A stretch of DNA of 64,000 nucleotides from a virus. Each line of letters opens with the position of its first letter. Within the stretch, counting starts at the first letter, position 1. A program made the position numbers and the translations under genes. The DNA lies in IMG/VR virus record IMGVR_UViG_3300025584_000449, positions 62,001 to 126,000 of that record; one strand, written 5' to 3'. Below are positions 15,353-62,315 of this stretch, piece after piece. A model generated the notes under the pieces. The model had not been told where the DNA came from. It did no database searches and was given only the letters and a program-made list of their open reading frames with translations.

Positions 15353-17347
15353 ATGAACAATCTATTCTTAGATAGGAAAGAGCTTGAAAAGAAAGCGTTT
15401 CGCTATTTAACAGAAGACCACACTAATTGGGTAAAAGAGATAATTACGGAGTTGTTAACAAACTTCCCTGAGTTTACAGACGTGGATTTAGGTGTTGAGT
15501 GGATACGTAAAGACTTCAATAAAGGAACAGCAGTAGGATTCGTCAATATACAAGGAATGGCTCAGGTCCCTGTTATAGTAGATAGCTATAATATGTATGA
15601 TCTTGATGTCATTATAGTGAATAACTCAACGTATCCGTTAACACACGATACAGTGTTAAAGTTATTTAAGAATCCGGCAGCATTTAAGACTTCCGGTAAA
15701 GGCACATCTTTAATTAAAGACCTTGATCTATTTGTACGTCCTGTTGTAGAGCCAGCCACAGCTGGTGAATCTAGCGTTAAGACTGCTAAATATGACTCTG
15801 TAATAGAGAAAATGGGTGGGTCGGTGCTAGGTAATGACTTACGAGACATTCTTTCGTCTATAGAGCCATATCTCAACGAATATATGGACAATGGACATGG
15901 CGATATCATTGAGAAGCTTAGCAGTATTGAGCCTATTGAGGAAACTGACTTTGCTAAAGACTTAATGCGTACTATGCCTATTGACAGACAGTACAAATAT
16001 GAAGATAGTAATGGTAACACTATATTAAAACAGGCTAATAGTAGGGTGAACTACACATATATGATAGAAGTTGACAGTCAAGAGGCTGATCTTAATGAGG
16101 ATATGACTGCAGAATCATTAAAAATAGCGGCCTCTTATTCTAGTCCAGACCTATATACATACTATATTGATAAAAGAGGCAAAGCTCAAAAAGCCTATAC
16201 TACTGTATTCAATAATGTAAATAAAAAGCGTGACATAAAGGTAATAGATAGAGAAACTTTCAAGACTATGAGAGTATCTTCTGGTATTAGAAATCCTAAG
16301 CGTAAAGCTGAATATTTAAAACGTAGAAATAAGTCAACTGAGAAAATTGCTAGTGTTAATGAATCTCCTAAAGTAATGAAACTAGTAAATGATCCTGGGT
16401 CTCTGTTCTTATATAAGAACGGAAGCTATTTATGCAGCGATGACACAAATTCTCTAGATATGGAGAAAGTTGCTAGCCTTGGATCACAGCAATGGACACC
16501 AGAAGGCACAATTCCTTCTATGGGCGATACAGGCTGTTGGGTATTTAGCGATAATAGTGCTTCTAAGCCGTTTGAGGTAGTAGGATTACATAAGGTTGCT
16601 GGTGTAGGCAACTTTGAGGTTGTAGGCTGGGATGGAATGAATAGACATACGTATTATCCTCTGCAAGGCATTAAGGATAATGACCTTATTGAGCATGATA
16701 AGTATAATGATTCGTCCTATGTACCAGGAAATACGAAATTCGTTAAATTGGCTACTAGAATTGAGAATAATGATCTGTCATTGATAAGAGAGCATATCAG
16801 TAATAAGGTAAGCAAGGATAGTGCCGGATTATACTCATTCCATGGAGCGGAATTTAGCAAATATAGCTCTAAAACTAGAGACTTGACCTTTGATGAGGCT
16901 ATGTGGACTGCGATACATTGTAATGTACCCAATGATCAATTAGAATCATTGGAAAGCTTAGAGAAAAGCGCTTCATTGGCGTTAGATGCTAAAGCTCCTA
17001 TGTCACTTCTTGATCTCGAGTATAAGATCCATTCGAAATATAAGGATCTGTACTCTGACATGAAAAATGACATCATGAAGGTGGCTGCTATGGGTGCGGT
17101 TCCTAGTATTGGGTCACCTAAGACCATAGATGCCGTATTAGGGCTTAGTCTACTCAATAAGAACAACATTACGAGTTACTTAGAGCTGATTCCTGCCTAT
17201 GAAGAGGTATTACAGTACTTAGCTAAGCTACTACTGGCTGTGCGTATGGGACTTAAGACGTTAGATGAGTATCAGGTAAAAGAGGCAATGTTGAACCTGA
17301 CTAAGGTGGTTGTAGGGCTAAAGAGCTTAGGTGCTGTAATGAAATAG
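15353..17347 (+). CDS. Large virion protein, unknown
   Basis: 664 aa. An N-terminal domain contains VNIQGMAQVPVIVDSYNMYD followed by LDVIIVN...YPLTHDTVLKLF, which I take to be a conserved region of large-phage virion proteins without being able to name it. The protein is rich in the K-x-A words seen across this phage's capsid proteins (EKKA, VKTA, EKIAS, EKVAS, HKVAG, EKSAS, MKVAA). It has its own sigma-70 promoter. I considered a portal role because no portal is otherwise found, but the order of elements does not fit a recognised portal family. Confidence 0.6.
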   Translation: MNNLFLDRKELEKKAFRYLTEDHTNWVKEIITELLTNFPEFTDVDLGVEWIRKDFNKGTAVGFVNIQGMAQVPVIVDSYNMYDLDVIIVNNSTYPLTHDTVLKLFKNPAAFKTSGKGTSLIKDLDLFVRPVVEPATAGESSVKTAKYDSVIEKMGGSVLGNDLRDILSSIEPYLNEYMDNGHGDIIEKLSSIEPIEETDFAKDLMRTMPIDRQYKYEDSNGNTILKQANSRVNYTYMIEVDSQEADLNEDMTAESLKIAASYSSPDLYTYYIDKRGKAQKAYTTVFNNVNKKRDIKVIDRETFKTMRVSSGIRNPKRKAEYLKRRNKSTEKIASVNESPKVMKLVNDPGSLFLYKNGSYLCSDDTNSLDMEKVASLGSQQWTPEGTIPSMGDTGCWVFSDNSASKPFEVVGLHKVAGVGNFEVVGWDGMNRHTYYPLQGIKDNDLIEHDKYNDSSYVPGNTKFVKLATRIENNDLSLIREHISNKVSKDSAGLYSFHGAEFSKYSSKTRDLTFDEAMWTAIHCNVPNDQLESLESLEKSASLALDAKAPMSLLDLEYKIHSKYKDLYSDMKNDIMKVAAMGAVPSIGSPKTIDAVLGLSLLNKNNITSYLELIPAYEEVLQYLAKLLLAVRMGLKTLDEYQVKEAMLNLTKVVVGLKSLGAVMK

Positions 17348-18040: not shown

Positions 18041-18496
18041 ATGAAAAAACATGCAGGGTCAAACATCTACTTTTCTAAAGGGAGAAAGATGGATTTAAGC
18101 AAGGCGCTTAGTCCAAGCACATCTTACCATTATTCGGCTCAAGGAAAATATACAGATCCTATTTTACATATGGATCGTAAAGAATCTAAATTTTTAAATA
18201 AAATAGACAATCAAACTACATATATAGATCCCAGTCAAACAGAAGCTTATATAAAAGCATATGATAAATCTGTTAGAAAAGGTGTAACAAACCAGTTTTC
18301 CAAATGGGAAAAGAAAAAAATAAAGAAAAAGTTCTTAGGGATAATTCCGTATACTAAGAAAAAACGAGTAGTAGTCACAGATAAAAAAGGTATTGAGAAA
18401 AGATTAAACGATCCTGAGTTTAAAAAGCAACATTTACGCGTTTTAGGATTTATGAATAAAAATAGAAAAACTGGATTTTCAGTAGGAGTTGGGTAA
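18041..18496 (+). CDS. Small basic protein, probable virion cargo
   Basis: 151 aa, very Lys-rich (KWEKKKIKKKFLGIIPYTKK). It starts MKKHAGSNIYFSKGRKMDLS and ends ...VLGFMNKNRKTGFSVGVG. It has its own late-type promoter and terminator and resembles in composition the other basic proteins at 20-33 kb. No fold recognised. A packaged, DNA-bound or injected protein is inference. Confidence 0.6.
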   Translation: MKKHAGSNIYFSKGRKMDLSKALSPSTSYHYSAQGKYTDPILHMDRKESKFLNKIDNQTTYIDPSQTEAYIKAYDKSVRKGVTNQFSKWEKKKIKKKFLGIIPYTKKKRVVVTDKKGIEKRLNDPEFKKQHLRVLGFMNKNRKTGFSVGVG

Positions 18497-20124: not shown

Positions 20125-20766
20125 ATGTTAATAAAACTTGGATTTAGTAAAACTTACTATAGAGGGATGGGCTCAGAGTTTGTAACAGATGTAAAAAATC
20201 ACGGGTTGCCAAAAGGAACTTCCATAACTTCTTCTAAAACCATAGCAAAAGAATATGCAGAAAAAGGAGCTCTAAATAACTTAGAGGGCGATCCGCAAAT
20301 TGGGTATAAAACTAATTCTAAAATAAAAGCACAAGTAAAAAAGTTAAGAAGGTTGGGGGTATCTAAGAGAACTTCTAGACTTCAAGCTCCTTGGACTATA
20401 AAGCCTAAAGGTGCAATAATAAAACTAAAAATTCCAGACAAATTAGAAAATACTTTAGATCTGGGATTGGGGCATTTAAAAGAAAAAGTTTTAACAACTA
20501 ATATACCTAAAAAGTTTATTTCGATACAGGAAGATAATATAGCAGCTCCAAAAGGGGAATTTCCCGCAAGTGTTAGACGTTTTACTAGAAAACAACTTCG
20601 TATTTCCGAAGCAGCTGCCAATAAAGGGCGTAAAAAAGAAGTTGTTAGTTTATTAGAATCTGCAGCAACAAATCACCCAGTTCCTTTATTAGATAAAAAA
20701 AAGCAACTTAGACAATCAAGAATTTTTAGAAAACAGCTTACTAAAAAACTAATAAAGTTATTATGA
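20125..20766 (+). CDS. ADP-ribosyltransferase-like effector
   Basis: 213 aa. YYRGMG at residues 11-16 and GTSITSSKTIAKEYA at 31-45 resemble the R and S-T-S elements of R-S-E type ADP-ribosyltransferases. KKFISIQED near 129-137 could supply the glutamate (E136) of the third motif. The C-terminal 70 residues are strongly basic. Several phages inject such enzymes with their DNA to modify host RNA polymerase (T4 Alt is the known case). The sigma-70-type promoter and position among basic virion-type genes fit that role, but the assignment rests on short motifs. Confidence 0.5.
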   Translation: MLIKLGFSKTYYRGMGSEFVTDVKNHGLPKGTSITSSKTIAKEYAEKGALNNLEGDPQIGYKTNSKIKAQVKKLRRLGVSKRTSRLQAPWTIKPKGAIIKLKIPDKLENTLDLGLGHLKEKVLTTNIPKKFISIQEDNIAAPKGEFPASVRRFTRKQLRISEAAANKGRKKEVVSLLESAATNHPVPLLDKKKQLRQSRIFRKQLTKKLIKLL

Positions 20767-26425: not shown

Positions 26426-26462
26426 ATATGTGAGGACCTATGTCAAGGAGAAACAACATACA

Positions 26463-27416
26463 ATGGCTAAAACAGAAGAAGCGGTTTTTAAAGCTATCAG
26501 GGCATCTGGTGCAAAGTGGCGTAAAGCGGCGCGTCCTATGGACTATCATAAGGATGCAGCGAAAGCTTCTCAAACGAGTATTGGTAAATATTTTCACTTA
26601 GCAGCTAAAGAACTGCATGAAGGTGTATATAAAGGAAAGCGAGTTTTTATGAAAAAGAAAGCTGGAAAAATTGATAGGTATTGGGACGCTGCTGCTGCAA
26701 CGTCTAGAAAATTAAAACTTGACAAGCTATTTATAGCTAAAAATAAAATATTAAATAAACAAACAAAAGGTGAAATGGCTAATATTATAAATAAAGCGAT
26801 GGGAGAAGTGGAGGCAGCTGCCGTAGTAGCAACTGCACCAGTAACAGTTCCCATAGTAGGTGGCGCTATTGCATTGAGCGCCGCTAGTAATATGAAAAAG
26901 AAAGCTGGAAAAATTGATAGGTATTGGGACGCTGCTGCTGCAACGTCTAGAAAATTAAAACTTGACAAGCTATTTATAGCTAAAAATAAAATATTAAATA
27001 AACCAAAAGGTGAAATAGATAATATACTAAATAAAGCGTTGGGAGAAGTGGAGGCAGCTGCCGTAGTAGCAACTGCACCAGTAACAGTTCCCATAGTAGG
27101 TGGCTCTATTGCATTGAGCGCCGCTAGTAAAAAGAGAAAAGAAAAAGCTCTACTTAAAGCAGCTTTTTTAAGAAAAACTGTAAGAAGAACTGGTCGGGCT
27201 ATTGCTGCTGGAGCTCGTAAAGTTAAAGGGAAATTTTTTCCGAAAAAAAATAATCTTCCAACCGTTTACTCGCATCCAGTAGTAACACCTGGAAAAGGTG
27301 GCTGGGATCCTACAGCATTAACAGAAGCAAAAACAAAATTTATTTCTAGTAAAGGATTATTAGTTGGCGGTGGAGTAGCTGCCGGTATTGTTGGCACAAA
27401 ACTGATAGATGATTAA
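26463..27416 (+). CDS. Basic Ala-rich protein with internal duplication
   Basis: 317 aa from the ATG at 26463, with AAGGAG 12 nt upstream; an in-frame GTG at 26430 is an alternative. Residues about 63-143 and 144-223 are a near-identical tandem duplication. Each unit holds KKKAGKIDRYWDAAAATSRK, then LKLDKLFIAKNKILNK, then a hydrophobic stretch VATAPVTVPIVGG. Each hydrophobic stretch could insert into membrane. The C-terminus is basic with a last hydrophobic segment. Probably a virion or injected protein; no enzyme signature. Confidence 0.6.
   Translation: MAKTEEAVFKAIRASGAKWRKAARPMDYHKDAAKASQTSIGKYFHLAAKELHEGVYKGKRVFMKKKAGKIDRYWDAAAATSRKLKLDKLFIAKNKILNKQTKGEMANIINKAMGEVEAAAVVATAPVTVPIVGGAIALSAASNMKKKAGKIDRYWDAAAATSRKLKLDKLFIAKNKILNKPKGEIDNILNKALGEVEAAAVVATAPVTVPIVGGSIALSAASKKRKEKALLKAAFLRKTVRRTGRAIAAGARKVKGKFFPKKNNLPTVYSHPVVTPGKGGWDPTALTEAKTKFISSKGLLVGGGVAAGIVGTKLIDD
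26649..27131 (+). repeat. 243-nt tandem direct duplication
   Basis: Two adjacent copies, 26649-26891 (243 nt) and 26892-27131 (240 nt, one codon shorter), starting ATGAAAAAGAAAGCTGGAAA. They differ at few positions, so the duplication is recent. Both stay in frame in gene 26463-27416. Confidence 0.9.
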
Positions 27417-30362
27417 ATGATATATTCTATAACTCTCCAAAAAAAGCAAAAATTCGGCAGACCTAAAAAAGTCACGCTTAGAGAATATTCTAAGCGTAGA
27501 CTTGAGGCTAATGTTATGCAAAAGTTAAAGGAGGGTTATACAAAAACTGCATCTGAGAAAAAAGATATAGTTGAAACTGCTGGAGCATCCGCAGCTACTG
27601 CGGGTGTTTTACAAACTACTAATGTAATAAAAAAGAAACGTGCTATAAAGAAAGCTCCTAAGACTATTGAAGAGGCACGAAGAGTTTTAGAAAAAGCGAT
27701 GGCTGGTGCTAGTAAAGGTGATGTAATATTTACTAGCAACCCTAAAGGGTTAACTCCTGATTATAGACCATTACATCCTATAATGATTCTTGATAAGAGA
27801 AAGAAAAAATTAGGGGATGTGTATCCCTCTACTGTTAATGGTGTTAATAGTAATGTAATGTCTGGAGTTAAGTCCCCACATCACATTGAGTCAACAAAGT
27901 CCAAATTAGATTTTTATTTAACTGGGGCTGGTTATGGTAAGGCCGAGTATAAGCCAGAGCATTTTTTACAGTTTAAGAGTATAAAAAAAGGAAATCCAGA
28001 AGCAGCAAAAAGGTTTGTTGAACAAGCTAGATCAGGAGAATACTCTTACGGCATTGGTAGTCCAAAAAATCCTAAAAAGATAACATGCGTAGATGCAATT
28101 TGTAAAGCTATTCATGGTAAAAAATCAATTAAACACTCGACTCCACGAGCTCTTTCTAAATCATTAAAAACTGTTTGGAAAAATCCTGCTGCTTATAAAG
28201 CACTTCCCGTAGTTGCTCCAGCTGTAGCCGTTGGTGGAACAGTAGCTGCTTATAAAGCTTTTAAAGCTAGAAATAAAAAAGTGTCTACTCAAAATAAAGC
28301 AGTTATTGCGGCAGGTGCTATAGGCACTGTGCCAGCAGTACATGCTGGAACCTCCCTGGTAAAAGGTTTTTCAAGAACGGGATTAAAACAGTTAATGAAA
28401 ATAGCTGCTAAGAAAAAGGAAGATAATAATAAAGCTAAAGCTTCTGTTTTAGCAGGAACTGCGGTTGCGGCTCCTACTGCTGTTGCAGCAGATCATTTAA
28501 CTAGAAAACGTAATCGTGTAAAGATTGATCCTAAAGCTAAAGATGCTATTATATTTACTGAAGGTGGAAAATATAACACTGGCGGGTCTGGACATGCTGC
28601 AGCGTCAGAAGCCATTAGACAGGCCTATGAAAAGAAACATCCCGGTGCAAAAGCTCACGTAATGAACTATGGAGATTATGCTAAAGCTAAAAGATTGGCA
28701 AACCCTGCTAAAACTAATTATGAAGCTATGGCTGGAATTTCTACACAAAATCCTTTTAAGAAATTTTTAGGACGGTTAGGGTTTGGTAGTACTTATCTAC
28801 CTTTCTATGCCTCAGTAAGTAAAAGAAAATTATCAAAAGATATTAAAGCAATTAATCCTGGAAGAGTAATAGTTACTCATCCTGGAGCTGCTCCACATTT
28901 ACAAAGTTTAGGCATTAGTCCTGAAGTAGTAGTAACAGATTACGGTGTGGGTAATAAAGGCTCTAAAGATTTTTGGGAAACAGCAAAGGGTCTTGGAAAG
29001 AAAGATCCAAAAAATGTTGGTGGAGTGTTTGCTCCTTCTAAATCTGGAACTGATATCTTCAAAGATGTAAAGGATGCTGGAAGACCTGTTACACAAATTA
29101 GCTCTATTCCAATTGAAAATCGTCACATAAAGCCTGTAAAGGTTGATAAAAAATTAGTAAGAAAAATAAAACCAACAGCTTCACCAGATTTTGATGCTTA
29201 TACGCCAGATAGAAAAAAGAGTGGAAAAATTGTAGTTCCAAAGGGTAAAAAATTAGTTGTATTAGCTGGTGGTGGTACAGGACAAGACGTAGAAGCTATG
29301 GCAGAAATTCTGTTAAAAGAAAAACGAAAAGGTATTCATTACGTAGGTGTTGCTGGCGGAAATAAAAAAGTATATAGAAGATTACAACAACTACAGCAAC
29401 AGCATGGTGCAGATAAGATATCTATAACTGGTTTTGCAAAGAATCTTGATAAACTAAACGAAGCTGCGCATGTAACAGTCTCTCGCCCTCACGGGTTAGG
29501 CCCTACTGAATTAGGCGCTTCCGGTAAAGTCAATATTAATGTTGTGCGTGGGAGAAAGTATGACAAGAGAAAAAAGAGTTTAAAATTTGTAGATAGCTAT
29601 AGCCCTCATATGAGTGAGAATGCTTTACATTATAGGGATACAGCTGGATCTCCTATTGCCACCCTTAGAAGAGGCAAAGGTAGAAAAGGATTAGATTATA
29701 ATAGTTTGAATGATCAACTAAATTATGCTTTGAGTGATCATAAAAATTTAAGTGCAAAAGCGAAATCTTGGCAAGAAACCTTCCAAGAAGGTGGCGGTGC
29801 AGCTGAAGTTGCAGCGGCCAAGTCTAGTACTTTCTCAAGAAAACTTAAACTTAGTAAATCTAAAGTCGGAATAGCTGTTGGCGTTAGTACGGCATCACTT
29901 TTAGGTGCTAAACACTTTCTTACTAAAGATAAAAAGAAGCAAGTAAAGGTAGCTGAAATGAAAAAGAAAAAGAAGGAAACTGGAACACTTGTGTCTTCTA
30001 CAGTTAAAATGACTGCAGCAGGTGCGACAGCTGGTGCTGGAAAATATATAACAGATTTGATTAGACTTGGTCAGCCAGGCGATACTGCTGGTCAAGGGTT
30101 TAGCGAACGAGCTATTTTAAAAGGGGTAAGCGAACAAGCTATAAAAGATTCTCTTCGTATGCGCTCAAAGGGTGGTATTAGAGATAGTTTTTCTGTTGCG
30201 CTACACGGAGAAGAAATAGCTAAAAAAGTAAGAGAAACAGCTAATGCTAGAATCTTCAGCAAAGGAGTATTAAAATCTATGAAAGCACCAGCCGTAGCTG
30301 CTGGGTTAGCTGGATTAGGATTTGGAGTCCATCGTGAGTTTAAAAGGAAGCAAAAGAAATGA
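27417..30362 (+). CDS. Papain-like plus GT-B glycosyltransferase virion protein
   Basis: 981 aa. Residues about 95-245 contain GDVIFTSNP (101-109), PLHPIMILD (His120) and KITCVDAIC (Cys224). This order, GD then His then Cys, is that of circularly permuted NlpC/P60 (YiiX/YaeF-type) cysteine peptidases or amidases. Hydrophobic segments lie near 263-282, 296-312 and 342-360. Residues about 375-760 form a GT-B glycosyltransferase: N-domain TEGGKYNTGGSGHAAASEAI, and C-domain VVLAGGGTGQDVEAMA (about 613), VGVAGGN, ITGFAKN and SRPHGLGPTELGA (about 687). This resembles MGDG synthase/MurG enzymes. The ends are basic. Function in infection is inference. Confidence 0.6.
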   Translation: MIYSITLQKKQKFGRPKKVTLREYSKRRLEANVMQKLKEGYTKTASEKKDIVETAGASAATAGVLQTTNVIKKKRAIKKAPKTIEEARRVLEKAMAGASKGDVIFTSNPKGLTPDYRPLHPIMILDKRKKKLGDVYPSTVNGVNSNVMSGVKSPHHIESTKSKLDFYLTGAGYGKAEYKPEHFLQFKSIKKGNPEAAKRFVEQARSGEYSYGIGSPKNPKKITCVDAICKAIHGKKSIKHSTPRALSKSLKTVWKNPAAYKALPVVAPAVAVGGTVAAYKAFKARNKKVSTQNKAVIAAGAIGTVPAVHAGTSLVKGFSRTGLKQLMKIAAKKKEDNNKAKASVLAGTAVAAPTAVAADHLTRKRNRVKIDPKAKDAIIFTEGGKYNTGGSGHAAASEAIRQAYEKKHPGAKAHVMNYGDYAKAKRLANPAKTNYEAMAGISTQNPFKKFLGRLGFGSTYLPFYASVSKRKLSKDIKAINPGRVIVTHPGAAPHLQSLGISPEVVVTDYGVGNKGSKDFWETAKGLGKKDPKNVGGVFAPSKSGTDIFKDVKDAGRPVTQISSIPIENRHIKPVKVDKKLVRKIKPTASPDFDAYTPDRKKSGKIVVPKGKKLVVLAGGGTGQDVEAMAEILLKEKRKGIHYVGVAGGNKKVYRRLQQLQQQHGADKISITGFAKNLDKLNEAAHVTVSRPHGLGPTELGASGKVNINVVRGRKYDKRKKSLKFVDSYSPHMSENALHYRDTAGSPIATLRRGKGRKGLDYNSLNDQLNYALSDHKNLSAKAKSWQETFQEGGGAAEVAAAKSSTFSRKLKLSKSKVGIAVGVSTASLLGAKHFLTKDKKKQVKVAEMKKKKKETGTLVSSTVKMTAAGATAGAGKYITDLIRLGQPGDTAGQGFSERAILKGVSEQAIKDSLRMRSKGGIRDSFSVALHGEEIAKKVRETANARIFSKGVLKSMKAPAVAAGLAGLGFGVHREFKRKQKK

Positions 30363-30518: not shown

Positions 30519-30677
30519 ATGAGATCATTTAAAATTGACGAATATAATTCTATTCCATTTAAGGATGAGGTAGAAACGTTACGTGAGAATGGTGAACATA
30601 AAGAGGCTTTTGAACTAATGGATACATTAGCTCAGCAAGCTATTACAACAGAAGATAAAGAAAAAACTGATGAGTAA
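30519..30677 (+). CDS. 52-aa helical protein
   Basis: GAGGAAATAACCA precedes the ATG. Starts MRSFKIDEYNSIPFKDEVET and continues as a charged helix. Its last codons overlap the zincin gene by 8 nt. Function unknown. Confidence 0.6.
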   Translation: MRSFKIDEYNSIPFKDEVETLRENGEHKEAFELMDTLAQQAITTEDKEKTDE

Positions 30678-31329
30678 GAATTATCTTATTCAAGCTTTAC
30701 TATCTGCTGGGGCTATAGGCTATGGAGTTCACGGTATTAAGCAGACTGATAAAGTTAATAAGGTACTTGAAGATCAAGTAAAAAAAGAAATAAAAATTAA
30801 TCAAAGATTACCAAAAGTTCCCAAAGACATAAAATTATTAAAAACTAAAAAAGATTTACATTCATATATTGACCTTTCAGAAAAAACTGATAAAAAACGA
30901 AAACTTATGAAACAAATTATAGGGCCGATAACAAAAAAGCCAAATGCTTTTGCGTTTGTACCAGACAATGAATCCGCCGGGTTAGCTGTTTATATCCCAG
31001 ATAATATGAAGGCTTCTAAAGTAGTCGCCCACGAATTGGGACATATAGAAGATTTTAAGAAACATAATGTAAAAGGGACTATAGGATATAACAAATTAAT
31101 AAATACTAAAAAAAGTCTTTTTAAAGGTATAATTAGCCCTAAAAAAACTTCCGTATACAGCTCTGAAGTTAGGGCTTGGGATAACGCAAAAATAAAAAAA
31201 GATGACCCATTAAGAGTGGCGGCTTTAAAAACATATGAAGAAAATTTAAAGATTTATAGAAGAACTATTCCTATTTTATTAGGAGTTGGTAATTTATATA
31301 GACTTGGATTTAAAAAAAGTAAATGGTAA
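30670..31329 (+). CDS. Zincin-type metallopeptidase, virion-associated candidate
   Basis: 219 aa. VVAHELGHIEDF places the HExxH zinc site at H121, E122 and H125. SSEVRAWDNA (E166) about 40 residues later is a good third ligand, giving a gluzincin-like arrangement. An N-terminal hydrophobic segment (LIQALLSAGAIGYGV) and a second near the C-terminus suggest membrane association. It ends YRLGFKKSKW. Phage zincins act on cell-wall peptides or host proteins; the target here is unknown. The position among other enzyme genes suggests delivery with the DNA. Confidence 0.65.
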   Translation: MSKNYLIQALLSAGAIGYGVHGIKQTDKVNKVLEDQVKKEIKINQRLPKVPKDIKLLKTKKDLHSYIDLSEKTDKKRKLMKQIIGPITKKPNAFAFVPDNESAGLAVYIPDNMKASKVVAHELGHIEDFKKHNVKGTIGYNKLINTKKSLFKGIISPKKTSVYSSEVRAWDNAKIKKDDPLRVAALKTYEENLKIYRRTIPILLGVGNLYRLGFKKSKW

Positions 31330-32646: not shown

Positions 32647-33135
32647 ATGATTTTTTGTAAGAATGCAAAATTAAGAGGAAGAGCATTAAGAGAGATTAGA
32701 AAACTAAAAGCTTTAGCAAAAGGTGATTTGACTACTCATCTTACTAATAGAGAAAGTTTAAATTCTATAATTTCTTCTAAAAAATTATTATCTTCAGCAG
32801 ATATTCATAGATTACCAGCAGAACATTCTTTAAGAAAAACCGAATGGGCTAGAATTTTTGGTCTTCATGGAAATTTAAGTGGCACTTATGGGGCTGAAAC
32901 TGGTAGAAATTATTCAGTTATATTTAAAAGAAAAAATACTATTAATGGTCCAACAAAATTTAAAACTGTAACCATGAAGTCTCCTCAAAAATTAAAAAAA
33001 ATTATAATAGGAACTCCAAAGTCTGAATTAAATGTTTTAAGAAAGAAATATAGGGATGTTGTTTTTGTAGATAATTCAGACTTACGTAAATTAGGATTTA
33101 AAAAAGAAGGGTTTGAATATGGCTATCGCTATTAG
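32647..33135 (+). CDS. DarT/ART-like toxin-fold protein (tentative)
   Basis: 162 aa. THLTNRESLNSIISSKKLLS near residues 30-49 resembles the H-x-T-x(2,3)-(E/N)-L-x-S-I-x-x-x-G-L opening of DarT-like and RNA-2'-phosphotransferase-fold ADP-ribosyltransferases. A later GLHGNLSGTYGAETGRNYSV could contribute the NAD-binding loop, and VVFVDN ends the core. The C-terminus is LRKLGFKKEGFEYGYRY. The protein is basic. Assignment rests on weak motif resemblance. Confidence 0.4.
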   Translation: MIFCKNAKLRGRALREIRKLKALAKGDLTTHLTNRESLNSIISSKKLLSSADIHRLPAEHSLRKTEWARIFGLHGNLSGTYGAETGRNYSVIFKRKNTINGPTKFKTVTMKSPQKLKKIIIGTPKSELNVLRKKYRDVVFVDNSDLRKLGFKKEGFEYGYRY

Positions 33136-34013: not shown

Positions 34014-34727
34014 ATGAGTCTTTTAGATAAAGTACAGACTACGCTAGATCCAAGTATTTGGCTTAAGAATTATAAGTTGAAACCTAAGGTTAGAAAACAA
34101 CTTATTAGAGAACTTAAAAGAGTAATTCCAAAGTCTACAAAGATAATGGACATTTTTCTACTTGGGTCTATCACTGGCTATAAGTATACTGTAAGATCAG
34201 ACATGGATGTCAACGTTATGGTTGATGTTAGCCCTGCTGATGCAAAAGTTTTACATGTAATGGCGCGTAACTTTGTTAATGGAAAATTAGTTACTGGGAC
34301 CAGACATCCAATTAATTATTATATTCTTCCTTATAGGAAGAAGTCTGATTTCAAAGATGCTAAGTTTGGAGTCTATGATATATTAGGTGATAAATGGCTA
34401 ATTCACCCTAGACTAGACCCAGAGAATATAAGAGATCCTAAAGTAGAATTCAAGAGTGAGCTAGAGCTAGCTAACTTATATGAAAAGATGTTAAAAGAAG
34501 ATGTTGAGAACGAGGATGTCGAGGATATTCTCGATATAGAACGAAAAGTACACGTAGGTCGAGAAATGGCATATGATGTAGGTTTTGGCATTCCTAGACG
34601 ATCTTTGCAGAACATAATATATAAGAAGTTGGAACATGGACCATACGGTAAAGTATTACAACATGCTCAAAAGATAAGATGGATTAGACGCAAGAAGCGC
34701 AAAGCACGGATGGAAATGGATAAGTAA
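34014..34727 (+). CDS. Pol-beta-fold nucleotidyltransferase
   Basis: 237 aa. FLLGSITGYKYTVRSDMDVN shows the GS motif (51-52) and the D-x-D metal site (D63, D65) of the minimal nucleotidyltransferase fold. The rest is a helical C-terminal domain ending in a basic helix (IRRKKRKARMEMD). Candidates include tRNA or RNA end modification, or AMPylation; the substrate is not evident. Stop and start meet at the terminase gene. Confidence 0.7.
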   Translation: MSLLDKVQTTLDPSIWLKNYKLKPKVRKQLIRELKRVIPKSTKIMDIFLLGSITGYKYTVRSDMDVNVMVDVSPADAKVLHVMARNFVNGKLVTGTRHPINYYILPYRKKSDFKDAKFGVYDILGDKWLIHPRLDPENIRDPKVEFKSELELANLYEKMLKEDVENEDVEDILDIERKVHVGREMAYDVGFGIPRRSLQNIIYKKLEHGPYGKVLQHAQKIRWIRRKKRKARMEMDK

Positions 34728-36284
34728 ATGGCTAATACAAAATCTCAGCGCAAAGTAAAGATGACGAAGTCTCAGTTTGCTGAGAAATTTTTATATTTAA
34801 ATGGTAGACAATTATCTTTGTCTGATTACCCTCATTTGAGGGCAATCTATGATTCAGATGCAAAAGACACTGTATTACAATTTAGCAGACAAACAGCAAA
34901 GAGTACTACTCTTGCTAATCTAAAGATTGCTAACTGTGCGATGCGTCCATATTTTAAATCTCTTTACATTGCTCCTACAGTTGATCAGTGTAAAGTATTT
35001 TCACATGATAGAGTTGCACCTGTTATAGAATCGTCTCCATTAATTAAACAACACTACATAAATTCTTCATTAGTACAGAACGTACATATGAAGCAATTTC
35101 TAAATGGATCTAAATTATATTTAAGATATGCCCTGGTGAATGCTGATAGGATTCGTGGATATTCTGCAGATATGAATCTATTCGATGAGGCACAGGATCT
35201 TGCAGCTGATATTATACCAGTTGTTAGAGAGACTATGTCTAGATCTATGTATAAAAAGACTATGTACGCAGGCACTCCCAAGCGCACGCGCGGGACTCTG
35301 GCAGATATATGGGAGCGTTCTACTAAGAACGAGTTCATGCCCCGCTGTACTGGCTGTGGAAAATGGAACTTATTAGATGAGAAGAATATAGGTAATCTTG
35401 GGGTTATCTGTAAATACTGTGGTAAACTAATGGACATCAAATCAGGTCGTTGGGTACAGACTGGTGAAGAGGATGCTACGGTTGAGGGCTGGAGAGTTTG
35501 TTTACTTCATTTCTCTAAAGCTCCTTGGGTAGATTGGCAAAAAGATGTAATAGAGAAAATGAAGATTACATCTAAGGCTATTTTCTATAATGAAACATTA
35601 GCTCTATCCTTCGATGATGGTGTAGCTCCAGTTACTAGATCACAAGTTAAAAAATGCTGCACTGGTCCAAGAATATCTCATGGAGACCCCGATCTTACAA
35701 AAGATAGTATTAATGCCTTTCCTAGAATATTGGGAATTGACTATGGTCCAGTAAACTCAGACTCATCAAATACTGTGATATCAATAGTACAAAAACGTGG
35801 ACCAAAGTTTCATGTATTATATGCTAAAAAATTTTTAGGCAAAGAAGCCGACTATGCGTTTATACATGATGAGGTACCAAGAATAATGAATAAATGGGGA
35901 GCCGAGTTTATAGCCTCTGACTATGGAATGGGAGAGGCACCTAACTCAGAGTTTAGAAGACGTTTAGGATATGAGAAAGTAATCGCTTTCCAGCACATGC
36001 CTAATCAGAAAAAGGTAATGGAGTTCAACTCCAAAATGCCTGCGTATACCCTTGGTAGAAACCAAGTTATGAATATGTTCTTCCAAAGAATTAAGAGTGG
36101 GGCTTATATTTTCCCCGAAGGGCAAGAGTTTGATACATTTGTTGATGATATGTTAAATGTACAAAATGAATACAATGAAGAAATGAACACAATGAAGTAT
36201 GTTAATATTGGTCCAGACGACTTTGTTCATGCAACCATATTTGCGTCCCTTTCTGCAGAATTATACAGTAACGCGCAACTTTAA
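34728..36284 (+). CDS. terL: Terminase large subunit
   Basis: 518 aa. An ATPase half has the Walker A variant FSRQTAKST (residues 52-60) and Walker B NLFDEAQD (about 150), followed by a coupling motif MYAGTPKRT. A four-Cys zinc insertion (CTGC ... CKYC, about 206-229) recalls GpA-type terminases. The nuclease half has ILGIDYG (about 336), ASDYG (about 398) and DDFVHA (about 497) as metal ligands. It packages genome DNA through the portal. A small subunit is not clearly recognised. Confidence 0.9.
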   Translation: MANTKSQRKVKMTKSQFAEKFLYLNGRQLSLSDYPHLRAIYDSDAKDTVLQFSRQTAKSTTLANLKIANCAMRPYFKSLYIAPTVDQCKVFSHDRVAPVIESSPLIKQHYINSSLVQNVHMKQFLNGSKLYLRYALVNADRIRGYSADMNLFDEAQDLAADIIPVVRETMSRSMYKKTMYAGTPKRTRGTLADIWERSTKNEFMPRCTGCGKWNLLDEKNIGNLGVICKYCGKLMDIKSGRWVQTGEEDATVEGWRVCLLHFSKAPWVDWQKDVIEKMKITSKAIFYNETLALSFDDGVAPVTRSQVKKCCTGPRISHGDPDLTKDSINAFPRILGIDYGPVNSDSSNTVISIVQKRGPKFHVLYAKKFLGKEADYAFIHDEVPRIMNKWGAEFIASDYGMGEAPNSEFRRRLGYEKVIAFQHMPNQKKVMEFNSKMPAYTLGRNQVMNMFFQRIKSGAYIFPEGQEFDTFVDDMLNVQNEYNEEMNTMKYVNIGPDDFVHATIFASLSAELYSNAQL

Positions 36285-36338: not shown

Positions 36339-37412
36339 ATGATGATCACTTCCTTCGATTTAGATTCCTTTGGAAAACAAGCTGCAGAAAATTACGTATC
36401 TAGCGATGTATCGTTAAACGATACTATTACAAAAATCGCAGAAGACAACGGATTGAGTGTGCAGCAAATAACACGTGTGGTGGAGGCTGCAAACGTGGAA
36501 ACCTACCTGTCTCTATTAAAAACTGCAAAAGACAAGTACGTCGAATTTGACGTAGCTACTGCAAATGATGTGCACACTTCAGTAACAAAGGTTGCTGAAG
36601 TTTCTAATTGTCATGACTATGATGAACCTCCGTGCATCAATGAAGACGTCGCTCTTTTCTACATAGAAAAGACTGCAGAAATTCCAATAGACAGAGCTAA
36701 GATAGAAAAACAAGCTAGCGAACTAAGTGGAAAATTCGACTTCTTAGTTAACGCTTTACATGACAACGAGTTAGAAGCAGATACATTACTTAGAGATCTA
36801 AAAGTAATGACCAAGCAAGCTTTGTTACAAAATGTCGCTTTTAATGATTTAGGTTTAATCTACAAAGAAGCTATGCCTATTCTAGGCGAAGCTGTTCTTT
36901 CAGAAATTAAAAATACAATTACAGAAAATTCTCCTCATCTAGATCTTGAAAAAGAAGCTTCTATGAAGTTTGTAAATGAGGAAAGTGACTTCTTCCTAGC
37001 CGCACAGAACTTTGAAAAAGTGGCTGAAAAAAGATTAATGATCGCAGATGCTATCTCTCACTTTGAGGATAAGTACGAAGAGTTAAAAGAATTTGATGTT
37101 ATACTTCCTAAGTTAAATAAAACTGCTGGAAGTTTAAGAGGTCTTCTAGCAAAAATAAAAGGCATTCCTGCGTCATTAGGTGAAAAGATGCGTAAAGCTA
37201 AAAAGCTTAAAGCATCTAAAGAATACGTAAAAGAGCATGAGAAAAAACTAACCTGGAAACCCGAAATTCCTGTTAAAAAAACTTTGAAGAGAGTTGGAAT
37301 TGCTGGCATGGTCGGTGGCGGTTATGCTGTTGGTAAAGGAAAAGGTAAAGAAGACCAAGGCGATATCTTACGTACACAATTATTTAATCAACAAAGATTA
37401 AGGAAATATTAA
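36339..37412 (+). CDS. Virion protein with repeated K-x-A words
   Basis: 357 aa, mainly helical, starting MMITSFDLDSFGKQAAENYV. It contains eleven K-x-A words (KQA, KIA, KTA, KVA, KTA, KQA, KQA, KEA, KEA, KVA, KTA). The C-terminal 60 residues are basic with a Gly-rich hydrophobic stretch (GIAGMVGGGYAVGKGKG). It lies between terminase and prohead protease, where portal or scaffold genes usually sit, but shows no portal signature. Confidence 0.6.
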   Translation: MMITSFDLDSFGKQAAENYVSSDVSLNDTITKIAEDNGLSVQQITRVVEAANVETYLSLLKTAKDKYVEFDVATANDVHTSVTKVAEVSNCHDYDEPPCINEDVALFYIEKTAEIPIDRAKIEKQASELSGKFDFLVNALHDNELEADTLLRDLKVMTKQALLQNVAFNDLGLIYKEAMPILGEAVLSEIKNTITENSPHLDLEKEASMKFVNEESDFFLAAQNFEKVAEKRLMIADAISHFEDKYEELKEFDVILPKLNKTAGSLRGLLAKIKGIPASLGEKMRKAKKLKASKEYVKEHEKKLTWKPEIPVKKTLKRVGIAGMVGGGYAVGKGKGKEDQGDILRTQLFNQQRLRKY

Positions 37413-40364: not shown

Positions 40365-40883
40365 ATGAGTAATATAATTGACGAAAGAGTAGAAATTATT
40401 TCTCAATATGCCGCTACTGCTGATGATCTATTAGCACAAGAATATGGTGAAGATTATGAGAAAGAAGATGTTGTTAAATTAGCCACATATATGTTAAATC
40501 ATGACATCGAAGCTGAAGAAGCTGAGGAAGTTGAAGAAACTACCAAAGAAGCAAGCTATGATATGGAGATTGAAAGACGCGAAGCTATCAGTGAGTATGT
40601 AAAGACTGCTTCTGCTCTCTTAACAGAAGAGCATGGCGAAGATTTTACTAATGATGATGTTGTTAAACTAGCTCAATACATGATCGAGTATGATGTCGAA
40701 GTTGAAGAAGAGGAAGCCGCTAAAGTAGCTTCTTACGAAGAAGCTGGACAGATCATGGCTAATGCTTTCTTAGCAGAGTTAAGCAAAGAAGCCGAAGAAG
40801 TTGAAGAGACCGAATCAGATAAAACAGCTGCCTATGAAATCGTAGAAAATTTATACGATAGCTTCTTTAATGAGGAAGAATAA
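40365..40883 (+). CDS. Acidic prohead-core-like protein with internal repeat
   Basis: 172 aa. Two tandem repeats of about 70 residues: SQYAATADDLLAQEYGEDYE...VVKLATYM and SEYVKTASALLTEEHGEDFT...VVKLAQYM. Then GQIMANAFLAELSKEA and the C-terminal DKTAAYEIVENLYDSFFNEE, both homologous to parts of the preceding protein. Likely a partner scaffold or prohead core component. Confidence 0.6.
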   Translation: MSNIIDERVEIISQYAATADDLLAQEYGEDYEKEDVVKLATYMLNHDIEAEEAEEVEETTKEASYDMEIERREAISEYVKTASALLTEEHGEDFTNDDVVKLAQYMIEYDVEVEEEEAAKVASYEEAGQIMANAFLAELSKEAEEVEETESDKTAAYEIVENLYDSFFNEEE

Positions 40884-40904
40884 CTTTTTTAATTCGGAGT
40901 AAAT

Positions 40905-41216
40905 ATGACCACGGATGATAAATTAAAATTAGCTGCCGATACTATTCGTGCCATACGTGATGAATTAGAGGAGTTGCAGATGGTTAAGTCTGCACAGGAA
41001 ACAGCTATAGAGCTGTATGAAAATGGCAGATTTCCTGCAGAACGAGCTATTCAGTTTATGCAGGAATACTCCGAGGGAAGTTCAGAGGAGTTAGAAATCG
41101 TTAAGAAGGCTATGGAGTTACAAAGCCAAGAGAGTTTTAGTTTTGGAACTCTTAGTGACAGAATTCAAGACGATGGGTCTCTGGACAATTTTACTCGGTG
41201 GTTGATTGAAGATTAA
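40905..41216 (+). CDS. Small helical head-module protein
   Basis: 103 aa, helical, starting MTTDDKLKLAADTIRAIRDE. Contains LKLAA and IVKKAM. Lies between the scaffold-like gene and the decoration-like gene. Function unknown. Confidence 0.6.
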   Translation: MTTDDKLKLAADTIRAIRDELEELQMVKSAQETAIELYENGRFPAERAIQFMQEYSEGSSEELEIVKKAMELQSQESFSFGTLSDRIQDDGSLDNFTRWLIED

Positions 41217-50244: not shown

Positions 50245-51253
50245 CACAGACCATTGGTTTGATGGAGAAATAGTATCTGAATCATCTTGGGTTAATACTA
50301 ATAATGTGTCTCTTGATATAAAGCAGATCTTTACTAGTTTTTGCCAGCAGTACTTTGGGGATCATAGCAAGTTTTTATGGAATGAAGATTTAAGGTCTAC
50401 AGCAATAGTTATAGCAGATAAAAATGCCATAGATCTTGGTATTATAGAACGAATTCCAGGTATTCTAGTTTCTCGTGGAGGAATGCAGTGGGCTTTCTCT
50501 CCTGGCCAAGATCCAGGATTAGGATCTAAATCTGATGGATTTGGAACTGAGGATGGTAAGCAAACTATAAAGGGACCGTTATATAATAATGCAGGATCTG
50601 GTAAACGTTACACAGACATCGTTAGAGGCACTGTAGTATTTAACTGTATATCTAAGAACGGGTTACAGGCTGAAGAGATAGCTTCTGAATTATTTATGGC
50701 GCTAACTGCTTATAAGACAGAGATTTATAAACACGGGATTAGCAGACTAGAGGGCTTAGCTCTTGGTGAAGAACAGATACTGAGGTCTAACTCTGATGTA
50801 GAACTAACTGTAGTTCCTGTTAGACTAACATTTTCTAGTCAAAGAAGTATAGCTCCATCTGAAACATCTTATAATTTAACGGTTGATTTAGGCGATGTTA
50901 GGTTATATGAAACTATACATTACCTCGTGACTCCAGGCACTTTACGGGATTATGTTAGCTTTAAAGTAGCTCCTGAATCAGGAGTAGCTATTTCCGTTAG
51001 TTACTATAGATTAGATGTTCCTGCAACCTCTGTTACTGATACTTTTACAGGGGATGGAACAACGACAGAGTTTTTATTAAGTACGAAGCCTTATGGGTAT
51101 TTTAAGTTATTTAGTGAATATATAGCTACTTTAACTTTCGATACTTATGTAAACACTGTTGGTGATAATGCCGAAGATTACTGGGGCTGGGTTACAGTTT
51201 CCGGTGCCTTTACTGAGGGTGAAGATTCTTACGTAATTTCTGGAGGAAGTTAG
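50225..51253 (+). CDS. Neck or tail-completion structural protein
   Basis: 342 aa. The N-terminal half contains WFDGEIVSESSWVNTNNVSL and GSGKRYTDIVRGTVVFNCIS. The C-terminal part contains DTFTGDGTTTEFLLSTKPYG, a common phage structural-strand motif, and ends YVISGGS. It lies before the sheath gene, where tail-terminator or neck proteins are found. Assignment by position. Confidence 0.55.
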   Translation: MTRTNINTDHWFDGEIVSESSWVNTNNVSLDIKQIFTSFCQQYFGDHSKFLWNEDLRSTAIVIADKNAIDLGIIERIPGILVSRGGMQWAFSPGQDPGLGSKSDGFGTEDGKQTIKGPLYNNAGSGKRYTDIVRGTVVFNCISKNGLQAEEIASELFMALTAYKTEIYKHGISRLEGLALGEEQILRSNSDVELTVVPVRLTFSSQRSIAPSETSYNLTVDLGDVRLYETIHYLVTPGTLRDYVSFKVAPESGVAISVSYYRLDVPATSVTDTFTGDGTTTEFLLSTKPYGYFKLFSEYIATLTFDTYVNTVGDNAEDYWGWVTVSGAFTEGEDSYVISGGS

Positions 51254-52044
51254 TGTTAAAAGACTTAGGGTTTGAAAAGCAAGCTGATTTTGAAAAGGAT
51301 GCCTTTTGGGGACTCTTAGCTAGAGCGGGCTCTAAGATTTTACCTTACGCTTTACGTAGTGCAAAAGCTATGAGGCGCTTTGGTGGAAGACCTGTGCGGA
51401 AGAAGATGAGAACTTCTAGTTATACTATGGCTAAAGGTCTTGCTAAGAATCCTTCAAGTAAAACACGACACGGGTTTTTAAGACGTGGTGTTGGTGAGCT
51501 TGGCTTTAATATGGAAACTGCTTTAAGGAGTCCAAGGGCTTATGCTAGAAATCTTTGGACACAGACAGGTACAGCGTCAAGACCTTTACAGAGATCTAAA
51601 GTTACTGGATTGCAAATGCCTTCTTTTTCTAAAGGATTGAGTGGATTAAAGTTCTGGAAAACAAAAAAAATAGATACTACTATGATTAAAGGTGATAAAC
51701 GATTTTATAAAAGTCGTCTTTTTGGAGTTAAAAAAGAGGTAACTGGATTTACAAATGAAGGCAAGGCGTTAGTAAAAAGAGGTCCAGTCACAAGAACTGG
51801 AGCAGTTCTCTCAAGTGGTCCAGCTTTTGGAGCTGTGGAGTTAATACCTGGCAAAAAAGCTGATGGTACAGCAAAATCTTTGGGCAGCCGCGCTGGCCAT
51901 GGAATTAAAGAAACTGCTGCTTGGACTTTAGCTCCAGGGCTAGCCCAAACAGCAATGATTGGAAGATTAGGGTTTGAGGCTGTAAAAGGAACATCAAAAG
52001 CCTTAAAAAAGAAAAAACAAATTAATAATAATTTATATTATTAG
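51253..52044 (+). CDS. Basic virion protein with MLKDLGFEKQA start
   Basis: 263 aa, GTG start overlapping the upstream TAG. Starts MLKDLGFEKQADFEKDAFWG, then very basic (RRFGGRPVRKKMRTSSYTMA). Contains a GLKFWKTKK stretch and ends KALKKKKQINNNLYY. Composition is like the presumed injected proteins at 18-33 kb, although it sits beside the sheath. Candidate packaged protein; function unknown. Confidence 0.55.
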   Translation: MLKDLGFEKQADFEKDAFWGLLARAGSKILPYALRSAKAMRRFGGRPVRKKMRTSSYTMAKGLAKNPSSKTRHGFLRRGVGELGFNMETALRSPRAYARNLWTQTGTASRPLQRSKVTGLQMPSFSKGLSGLKFWKTKKIDTTMIKGDKRFYKSRLFGVKKEVTGFTNEGKALVKRGPVTRTGAVLSSGPAFGAVELIPGKKADGTAKSLGSRAGHGIKETAAWTLAPGLAQTAMIGRLGFEAVKGTSKALKKKKQINNNLYY

Positions 52045-54695: not shown

Positions 54696-55199
54696 TTAGT
54701 GAATCCAACAGTCTCCGATCACAGGTTCTACTTCCATAGGCACTGACGGAGCATAATGATTAAACGCTTTTATCATTTCTAATGATAACATGCCCGCGAC
54801 TTCATCAACTTCATCCTTATGTACTTCTAATAAAATTTCGTCGTGAACTGCGTTGATTATCATAGCATCATATTTGTTATCTCTAATTGATTCACTCGTT
54901 TTCCATAAAGCTCGTTTAGTAACACTAGAACCAGTACCCTGGAATGGTAAGTTTTTAGCAATGTTCATAGCATGGCTATGATGTTTTGGATTATCAAAAT
55001 CCATTGAACTTAAATCTCTTCGTCTACCATCAAGCGGGCTAAATGCGTATCTTAAATCTTCTGCACTGTCGGTAAAATCTTTAATTAGTTTAGCGATTTT
55101 AGGGAAGGTTAAGAAGTAAGATCTTAATAAGCCAGATGCTTCAGGTATTGAAATTTTTAGAACAGCTGATAATCTCTTAGCACCCATTCCGTAAATAAC
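54696..55199 (-). CDS. polA: DNA polymerase A, exon 2 (C-terminal palm/fingers)
   Basis: 167 codons after intron removal. It begins VIYGMGAKRLSAVLKISIPE, the second half of the O-helix motif (KAINFG...IYGMGA). It continues with YRYAFSPLDGRRRD-type segments and has motif C as VHDEILLEV near the C-terminus, with the catalytic Asp-Glu. It ends PVIGDCWIH. Joined to 55742-56995 it gives a 585-aa family A polymerase. Confidence 0.85.
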   Translation of the reverse strand, partial: VIYGMGAKRLSAVLKISIPEASGLLRSYFLTFPKIAKLIKDFTDSAEDLRYAFSPLDGRRRDLSSMDFDNPKHHSHAMNIAKNLPFQGTGSSVTKRALWKTSESIRDNKYDAMIINAVHDEILLEVHKDEVDEVAGMLSLEMIKAFNHYAPSVPMEVEPVIGDCWIH

Positions 55200-55741
55200 C
55201 AGGAACCCTCTGGTTTACCAGAGGCCCGGACTATCCCTTTATGTAACGACCTGTTACTTGGTCTCGTGTGCAATGGTGTTTTTGATGACATTTCTTACAT
55301 AGAACTTCTAAATTTTCTATATTATTATTTTGTCGATTATGATCTTTATGATGAGTCAGGATATTTTTTTCTGACTCACATCGATTACAAGTTTTACCAT
55401 AATATTCAAAAGCCCGTAAACTAAAATTTCTTATTCCGTTTTTATACATGTGGTTATCTTTTCCTGATTGATTACCACCAGAACCACTATATGGTTTTTT
55501 AATTAAACCTTTTTTAATTCTCCACGCGTGAGAGTTAAATGCGTTTCTACATTTATCTGAACAGAATTTTTGTCTACGTTTTGGAAGTACATTGTCACAC
55601 TTTTTACATACTCGTCGTCTAGTCTCTACACTTTCCTGCTTCTTCAGGCTTAGCTCGGGATTGCCACCACCATTATGTGCTGAGGTTTCCCCGAATTTGG
55701 CGAGTTTGTTTTCGGCATTATTTATTTTATTCATTATTCAT
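55200..55741 (-). other. Group I intron in polA
   Basis: 542 nt interrupting polA between FG and VIYG of the O-helix motif, a classic insertion point. The base before the 5' splice site is T (GGT) and the last intron base is G, as group I introns require. The 3' part holds AAGGGATAGTCC, similar to the conserved P7 strand, and the hairpin CCTCTGGTAAACCAGAGG near the end. Removal keeps the polymerase in frame exactly. Confidence 0.8.
55231..55734 (-). CDS. Intron-encoded HNH homing endonuclease
   Basis: 167 aa inside the intron, starting 7 nt from its 5' end. An N-terminal zinc-finger (CKKCDNVLPKRRQKFCSDKC, residues about 42-61) is followed by the HNH domain (YYGKTCNRC, LTHHKDHNRQNNNIENLEVL, CKKCHQKHH). 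It nicks or cuts intronless polA alleles to spread the intron. Its first 35 residues (ENKLAKFGETSAHNGGGNPE) resemble an N-terminal exon-like extension. Confidence 0.8.
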   Translation of the reverse strand: MNKINNAENKLAKFGETSAHNGGGNPELSLKKQESVETRRRVCKKCDNVLPKRRQKFCSDKCRNAFNSHAWRIKKGLIKKPYSGSGGNQSGKDNHMYKNGIRNFSLRAFEYYGKTCNRCESEKNILTHHKDHNRQNNNIENLEVLCKKCHQKHHCTRDQVTGRYIKG

Positions 55742-56995
55742 ACCGAAATTGATGGCTTTAGCGGCATCACGCTCTTCTTTAGTAATACTATCATAGTTTC
55801 TATTGAACAGGATAGCGGCACAGTAGGCATGCAAATCTTTTCCAGTTCTCAAACATTCAATAAACTTATCTTCTTCACTCATATGAGCTAGTAGTCTAAG
55901 TTCCTGATTTGCGAAGTCCGCTGCGACTATTCTATAGTCTAGATCTTGTGCTGTAAAAGCAGCACGATATACAGCACCTGCTGGTATATTCTGCATATTA
56001 GGTTTGGTACTGGCATATCTACCAGAGTCTGTGTTACCTAATTGCCAGAAACTAGAATGAACTCTACCTGTTACAGAGTTTACATTATTATCTAGAAATT
56101 CCTGTCCGTATGTAGTAACTAATTTCTTTCGTTTTCTGTACTCTAGTAATAGTTTAATTACTGCATGATTTTGTTTTTCAAGTTCTTGTTTATTAGTAGA
56201 GGTTAATGTTACATTACATATCTTAGGCAATAATTCCAACATTTGTTTAGGAGAATCATAATTTACCGTAGGTGACCCAAAAAGATCTACTGAGCAGTGT
56301 GGAGCGAACGCTTCATCCAGCTCAACCTTTAAATCAATAGCGGCCTTTAATGCTATATCTTTTAAGGCAAGCCATCTTTTTCTATCTAAGTGTATACCAT
56401 TCAATTCTAACTCAGCCGTAGCCCGCACAGTAGAATTTTCTAAATGGGCTAGTTTACTCATATCTCTTTGTCTGATAAACTTGTCCAATTTAGTATGCAG
56501 CGGTAATAAGTATTTAACGTCATCACCAGCATACTTAATTTGTTCCTCTGAAAATTGATCACCAAACTTCATACCTACGAAGCTTTTCTGTAAATCCTTA
56601 GAGACAGTCTCTCCAAGATATTTATCTACTACTGCGTCAAAACTATGTTTTGGTATGTTTTTACCCTGTGTCAACAAGTAATCTGCTAATAATGTGTCTT
56701 TCATATTTAAAAGATCAATGTCAAAATTAGCCCTGGTCATAACATAGTCAAACTTAGAGTTGTGTGCTACTTTAGCAGTATCAGGCTTTGCTAGTAATTC
56801 TAGAACAGGAAATATACTAGTACCAAGTCTCGCAACATCTAGTACATACTGAGTATGCTCGGTGCCTATTTGTATTAGAAGTACTTCATTCGTATGAGGA
56901 TCTAGTCCATTAGTTTCTACATCATACCCGATTATACCTCTAGTTTTTATAAACCTCTCTACTATTGGCACATCTTCTGGTTTTGAAATAAACAT
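55742..56995 (-). CDS. polA: DNA polymerase A, exon 1 (3'-5' exonuclease and palm)
   Basis: 418 codons. The exonuclease domain has GYDVETNGLDP (about 20-30, metal ligands D and E), VAHNSKFDY and YAGDDVKYL. The polymerase part has SSFWQLGNTDSGRYASTKPN, motif A as AADFANQELRLLAHMS and the first half of motif B, DAAKAINFG. A 5' nuclease domain is absent, as in T7-like enzymes. Translation of the unspliced RNA would add MNNE and stop. Confidence 0.85.
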
Positions 56996-61949: not shown

Positions 61950-62315
61950 TTAGTTTTTAAGGATACTTAGTACTAAGAATCCATTATCGTCATTATCTGC
62001 GTTTACCTCTTTACCTATTAATTCCTGTAATGAGTTAACTTCGTAGAATTTAATTAATTTCGCTAACCCAGTATAACTGGATAGTTCTCCATCGTCATTT
62101 ATATTGATCCAAAGTCCTGCTTTTTTAGATTCTCCACGATCCTCTAGAAGAAGGTCACTAATCTTGAACTCTCTTCCTTCTGCATCGCGGACTGTAAAAA
62201 TGGCTTTACTGCTAGGACCACTCGGTAAATTAACTTCTTCTTGGTCAATATTTATGACTGTTACTGTCTTATTGGAGCGTCCTACTCCAATGTTTAAAAA
62301 ATCTTTATCGTTCAT
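61950..62315 (-). CDS. Unknown protein (GLAKLIKFYEVNSLQELIGKEV type)
   Basis: 121 aa. The N-terminal half is beta-rich (KTVTVINIDQEEVNLPSG, AIFTVRDAEGREFKISDLLL). The C-terminal half (LAKLIKFYEVNSLQELIGKE, NGFLVLSIL) resembles small phage proteins encoded near replication genes, some of which bind single-stranded DNA. That similarity is from memory and not decisive. Overlaps the next gene by 4 nt. Confidence 0.6.
   Translation of the reverse strand: MNDKDFLNIGVGRSNKTVTVINIDQEEVNLPSGPSSKAIFTVRDAEGREFKISDLLLEDRGESKKAGLWININDDGELSSYTGLAKLIKFYEVNSLQELIGKEVNADNDDNGFLVLSILKN

Follow-up and report, generated by a model that had tools for sequence, protein, structure and literature searches.

An open reading frame in the late region of a large phage encodes a 981-aa protein, here termed P0001, in which a GT-B glycosyltransferase domain, whose identification is certain, is joined to a second domain that is probably papain-like. 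This pairing turned up in none of the other viruses searched. The window analysed was 64,000 nucleotides long (positions 62,001 to 126,000 of IMG/VR record IMGVR_UViG_3300025584_000449), and its parent viral record of 179,902 bases, with 21 tRNA genes, a terminase and tail-sheath matches, corresponds to a contractile-tailed phage of ~180 kb. From its sequence, we tentatively read P0001 as a polyvalent-type late cargo protein that may act on host membrane lipids or envelope precursors, a role held with somewhat less than even confidence.

The frame at 27417-30362 (+) translated into 981 aa without an internal stop, in agreement with an earlier sequence-only reading of the window. Its ATG comes immediately after the TAA that ends the preceding gene, and it has no Shine-Dalgarno sequence of its own. 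Residues 175-981, a stretch that includes the domain junction, recur at 99.9% identity in another IMG/VR contig, 3300003496_000185, so P0001 is not an assembly chimera, and GC content is uniform over the length of the gene. An assembly or frame artefact, for which the occurrence of the fusion in one lineage only would speak, is thus extremely improbable, and P0001 is a real, rare fusion. Its parts are as follows.

27417..30362, + strand: P0001, 981-aa fused protein (ORF translation)
27417..27653, + strand: N-terminal tail, aa 1-79, lysine-rich, net charge +15, YTKTA at 41-45 (composition)
27654..28196, + strand: putative permuted NlpC/P60 (papain-like) domain, aa 80-260 (motif order, profile match, low-confidence model)
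28188..28490, + strand: three mild Ala/Gly/Val-rich hydrophobic segments with basic loops between them, aa 258-358 (hydropathy)
28533..29216, + strand: GT-B N-terminal (acceptor-side) domain, aa 373-600, GSGH with H393, VTD 506-508 (hhalign, genome matches, alignment)
29217..29816, + strand: GT-B C-terminal (UDP-binding) domain, aa 601-800, AGGGTG 617-622, SRPHGLGPTE with E698 (profile matches, alignments)
29817..30359, + strand: basic C-terminal extension, aa 801-981, hydrophobic segment 817-835 (composition, hydropathy)

The translation placed GD at 101-102, His120 and Cys224 exactly where the sequence-only reading had put them, and the GT-B signatures that it had noted were found at 383-393 (GGKYNTGGSGH), 617-624 (AGGGTGQD) and 688-701 (VSRPHGLGPTELGA). 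Its description of the protein's composition needed adjustment. Hydrophobic segments, given as 263-360, were present at 258-276, 296-314 and 340-358 but are only mild (Kyte-Doolittle 1.29-1.38 over 19 residues), and a fourth stretch lies at 817-835; the protein, described as basic at both ends, is basic over its full length (net charge +115). P0001 contains two cysteines only, at 224 and 229.

The assignment of a GT-B fold to aa ~373-800 is settled. In Pfam the C-terminal domain of GT28 matched weakly (E=0.05), phmmer against the PDB retrieved the B. subtilis-type diacylglycerol beta-glucosyltransferase (9wde, E=1.8e-4), and NCBIfam returned diglucosyl diacylglycerol synthase (E=1.3e-6); the NF010135 score of 27.6 bits lies below the curated family cut-off of 500 bits. 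Against a profile of 80 UgtP genes from Bacillota genomes, the GT half aligned over 327 columns by hhalign (E=8e-9, compared with at least 0.059 for shuffled GT sequences), and the hhalign controls against UgtP, comprising eight shuffles, the reversed sequence and other proteins of the window, gave 0.039 or worse. The GT-B N-terminal domain by itself reached E=0.007. The GT half had matches at E<=0.01 in 44 of 200 Bacillota genomes, most of them covering the UDP-binding half (~30% identity, ORFs of ~380 aa), and four among the matches listed covered the N-terminal half (query 18-143); both Rossmann halves were matched separately, at ~30% identity. With nine Bacillota homologues added to the profile, hhalign reached E=3e-15 over 323 columns and aligned both Rossmann halves end to end. 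Four independent routes (PDB phmmer, NCBIfam, the Bacillota matches and hhalign at 3e-15) therefore substantiated the suggested kinship with lipid glycosyltransferases, and on these comparisons the GT half is well supported as belonging to the UgtP/MGDG-synthase branch of GT28, in which it is divergent. Structure prediction with a fold search, which had been named as a check, agreed for this half: the best PDB match of the AlphaFold model (pTM 0.59) was MGD1 (4wyi, E=8.6e-11), followed by WaaG and other GT-B enzymes including MurG. Because UgtP rows were used in building the model, it is not fully independent evidence.

In alignments, the GT half retained the GxGH histidine (H393), VTD 506-508 (with TD at 507-508), GGxG 618-622 and the TE glutamate (E698), and nucleotide binding is likely kept. 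The donor loop GQExxN reads PHMSEN in P0001, so that P730-H731-M732 stand in place of the GQE of the UgtP/MGDG branch; the loop follows an insertion of 16-17 residues at ~709-725, and N735 is retained. In GT28 enzymes such as MGD1 and MurG, the QE pair contacts the donor sugar. Since GQE has become PHM beside the insertion, donor choice or activity may differ.

Residues 80-260 are probably papain-like, of the permuted NlpC/P60 type. GD101-102, H120 and C224 stand in the order and at the spacing expected of such enzymes, along with EYSY near 205-210, TC224V and a PR motif. The GD..H..C pattern, which was partly fitted to P0001, arose in 10 of 100,000 shuffles of the N-terminal half and also occurred in 14 of 18 bacterial Peptidase_C92 members. 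Five of 777 ORFs of at least 150 aa carried it, namely P0001 and four ORFs of related phages: a 307-aa protein in L031, L032 (identical copies) and L053, and the ORF L022:1-762. The proteins L032:9078-10001, L053:5540-6463 and L022:1-762 are stand-alone and basic, lie just upstream of the terminase and have hydrophobic segments after the domain; taken together, the related-phage papain-like proteins matched Peptidase_C92 at E=1.7e-6. The presence of such stand-alone papain-plus-hydrophobic genes in the same slot suggests that the module is a recurrent cargo class. P0001 matched the papain HMM at E=0.006 (best of 200 shuffles, 0.67) and the combined papain profile by hhalign at E=1.6e-4 (shuffles, 0.12 or worse), the latter match being confined to the GD strand (26 columns; hhalign matches spanned 12-26 columns around GDV). 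Pairwise alignments with L032 (Z 2.2) and L053 (Z 3.1) brought GDV, H, TCV and PR into line, and Z was only 2.1 between the recognisable papain-like members L032 and L022. Pfam and NCBIfam gave no match to the N-terminal half, a PDB profile search with the papain alignments found nothing, PF05708 was not found across the whole record, and searches from A3 and L032:5781-6281 for further papain homologues returned known contigs only. AlphaFold yielded a model of this half too low in confidence to give a fold (pLDDT 33.9, pTM 0.27). The earlier papain claim is probable: the GD/H/C order and the clearer stand-alone versions in relatives speak for it, and the hhalign profile match covers the GD strand only.

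The short span of that profile match, the lack of Pfam and NCBIfam matches and the poor model would also suit an N-terminal half that is not papain-like but a linker, basic and in part disordered, that contains hydrophobic helices and in which GD, H and C coincide by chance. We consider this unlikely given the rarity of the pattern in shuffles and the stand-alone proteins of related phages, which share its motif order and layout and match Peptidase_C92. The GT-B domain might likewise be degenerate and non-catalytic, binding UDP-sugar or lipid only, for anchoring or precursor sequestering: GQE, replaced here behind the insertion, is conserved in nearly all aligned homologues, and the GG of KPGG is HG in P0001. 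With the GxGH histidine, TD, GGxG, the TE glutamate and the Asn after the loop all retained, loss of catalysis seems quite unlikely. Glycosylation of phage DNA or virion proteins instead of lipids is highly improbable; the GT-B fold is common to phage DNA glucosyltransferases and viral GT1 enzymes, but at the sequence level the matches point specifically to the branch of diacylglycerol glycosyltransferases, and a DNA alpha-GT first appeared at rank 50 among viral fold matches.

The sole relative of P0001 in IMG/VR was a near-identical copy, and scanning that database for patterns from the GT alignment gave no confirmed case. Neither half had a phage relative in 50,697 phage records, and P0001 matched nothing in annotated phages or in 31 related viral records, a comparison in which distant matches may escape the first-look filter. 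Searched at E<=10 in phages and plasmids, the GT half gave chance matches only, as did the N-terminal half in phages. UgtP itself matched 12 'phage' records; none of these was annotated, several were short fragments, and they are probably host DNA. Literature searches on phage diacylglycerol glycosyltransferases turned up nothing relevant. The sequence-only reading had known of no phage protein with this domain pair, which held true for the annotated phages, the phage/plasmid and IMG/VR searches, and the main text of PMC5512222.

P0001 sits in the late region between the spike and the terminase, co-directional with its neighbours, and the basic proteins around it have net charges of +20 to +42. 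The neighbouring features are listed below.

26430..27416, + strand: upstream basic protein abutting P0001, net charge +42, hydrophobic segments, internal duplication that is near-exact (sequence)
30670..31329, + strand: zincin-like protein (HELGH), downstream of P0001 (motif; Pfam M48 only at E=0.1)
32647..33135, + strand: DarT/ART-like basic protein (motif reading; no Pfam support)
34014..34727, + strand: Pol-beta-type nucleotidyltransferase-like protein (Pfam E=0.002-0.006; PHROG 36119 E=3.5e-10)
34728..36284, + strand: terminase large subunit, anchor of the late region (PHROG 675 E=7.5e-58)

P0001 had been placed in a unit with a zincin and a DarT-like protein, and the motifs of both are present, but neither Pfam nor NCBIfam had a model above its cut-off for 30670-31329, 32647-33135 or 20125-20766, the last being a second ART-like protein in the window (motif only). 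In relatives with 45-65% terminase identity, the stretch from spike to terminase is occupied by a varied set of basic proteins that have hydrophobic segments, including papain-like ORFs.

The protein at 26430-27416 contains a near-exact internal repeat of ~80 residues (KAGKIDRYWDAAAATSRKLKLDKLF...IALSAAS), which suggests a recent tandem duplication. LGF occurred within the first 16 residues of 18 ORFs, against 2.3 expected from shuffles; P0001 has no N-terminal LGF. The start M(L)KxLGF, possibly a packaging or ejection tag, was seen in short, otherwise different proteins of the clade (20125 and 51253 in the window; L005:17287; L032:51, 907, 3815 and 7474; L053:448, 3169 and 4001; L050:1096, 1605 and 2026; L027:1835; L028:1413; L033:1642). 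LGF was found in the last 25 residues at 18041-18496, 27417-30362 (P0001), 30670-31329, 32647-33135 and 51253-52044, and its C-terminal frequency in all loci tested (8 versus 3.2 expected) is a weak signal. The motif phi-K-x-A was 1.8-2.9-fold over expectation in two virion-gene blocks (15353-17347, 36339-37412, 40365-41216), where it possibly marks processing sites; it was not enriched in the cargo genes and was therefore dropped, as a prohead-protease site, from the arguments for cargo. A DNA polymerase A-like gene appears to be split, with a zinc-finger/HNH-like ORF separating its two ORFs (55727-56995, 55231-55734 and 54696-55187, - strand), an arrangement that resembles interruption by an intron or a mobile endonuclease. 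The cargo-region proteins L019:4260-5627, L026:3132-4448 and L019:7525-7950 carry 'EAKxAGxHYDxRL', which we take to resemble the phosphoesterase domain of bacterial LigD. A Bacteroidota host, read from the phage sigma factor, was rejected, as Shine-Dalgarno-like sites at 23 of 33 genes speak against it.

As a cargo protein, P0001 would be packaged with the phage DNA and ejected into the host, where its hydrophobic and basic segments would seat it at the inner membrane, as UgtP and MGD1 are seated peripherally. With a nucleotide sugar as donor, the GT-B domain would glycosylate a lipid acceptor in the membrane, either diacylglycerol/glycolipid or an envelope precursor linked to lipid, and the cysteine domain would act on a nearby amide or ester bond, in a peptidoglycan stem peptide or a lipid. 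The likely purpose would be conditioning of the membrane, either for the entry of DNA or to the detriment of competing phages. Virion carriage is plausible because of the late-gene context and the basic, cargo-like neighbours. Against the cargo reading as a whole stand the missing N-terminal LGF tag of several neighbouring cargo-region proteins, the lack of phi-K-x-A enrichment in cargo genes, the weak hydrophobic segments, the loss of GQE, the pLDDT of 34 for the papain model, and the lack of any relative beyond the near-identical phage. That an ejected, membrane-seated lipid glycosyltransferase and cysteine hydrolase/acyltransferase rewrites inner-membrane glycolipids or lipid-linked wall precursors at entry is possible and rather doubtful. 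P0001 might instead be made late and work in the infected cell, not from the virion, where its changes to the inner membrane or to lipid-linked precursors of the envelope would prevent superinfection or assist lysis. Its late-gene location suits this equally well, P0001 showed no packaging signal, and a separate candidate amidase endolysin is present elsewhere in the genome (L005:14343-14906, ORF translation). We regard such action as fairly unlikely, since basic, cargo-like proteins surround P0001 in the interval from spike to terminase and relatives have varied enzymes in this slot, the pattern expected of ejected proteins. Ejected phage proteins are known to act on DNA, RNA, proteins and peptidoglycan; if the cargo reading is true, an ejected enzyme that glycosylates membrane lipids would extend these targets to such lipids, and P0001 would be a concrete candidate for inner-membrane conditioning at entry, or for rival exclusion, by a large phage.

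Among known systems, UgtP/YpfP (NF010135; PDB 9wde), a processive diacylglycerol beta-glucosyltransferase, shares with P0001 the two-domain GT-B fold, GxGH, VTD, GGxG, [TS][KR]PxG..TE and the NxxF/Y after the donor loop, whereas P0001 has ~20% identity to it, has lost GQE, carries the 16-17-aa insertion, is far more basic, is fused to another module and is phage-borne. MGD1 (monogalactosyldiacylglycerol synthase, PDB 4wyi), a plastid enzyme, is the best solved-structure match, with a TM-score of only 0.46-0.56 for a moderate-quality model. MurG (GT28) is similar in its GT-B fold, UDP-sugar and lipid-linked acceptor, and PDB 7d1i was among the fold matches, but it ranks lower than MGD1, and another family fits better by sequence. 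Peptidase_C92/YiiX and other permuted NlpC/P60 enzymes show the same GD - H - C order and spacing, with a profile match limited to the GD strand. The stand-alone papain-plus-hydrophobic proteins (L032, L053, L022) resemble P0001 in their location upstream of the terminase, basic character, hydrophobic segments after the domain and motif order; unlike P0001, they have no glycosyltransferase, and their identity to it is at best 23-25%. Polyvalent proteins, for which packaging and injection have been predicted (Iyer et al. 2017), are encoded in late-gene locations and include zincin, ART and Pol-beta domain types; glycosyltransferase, papain and NlpC are unmentioned in the main text (PMC5512222). 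The zincin and ART of the P0001 locus differ from those in being separate genes, but P0001 is like the polyvalent proteins in its location among late genes with zincin-, ART- and Pol-beta-type neighbours and, provided that the probable papain-like domain is real, in uniting unrelated enzymatic domains in one protein.
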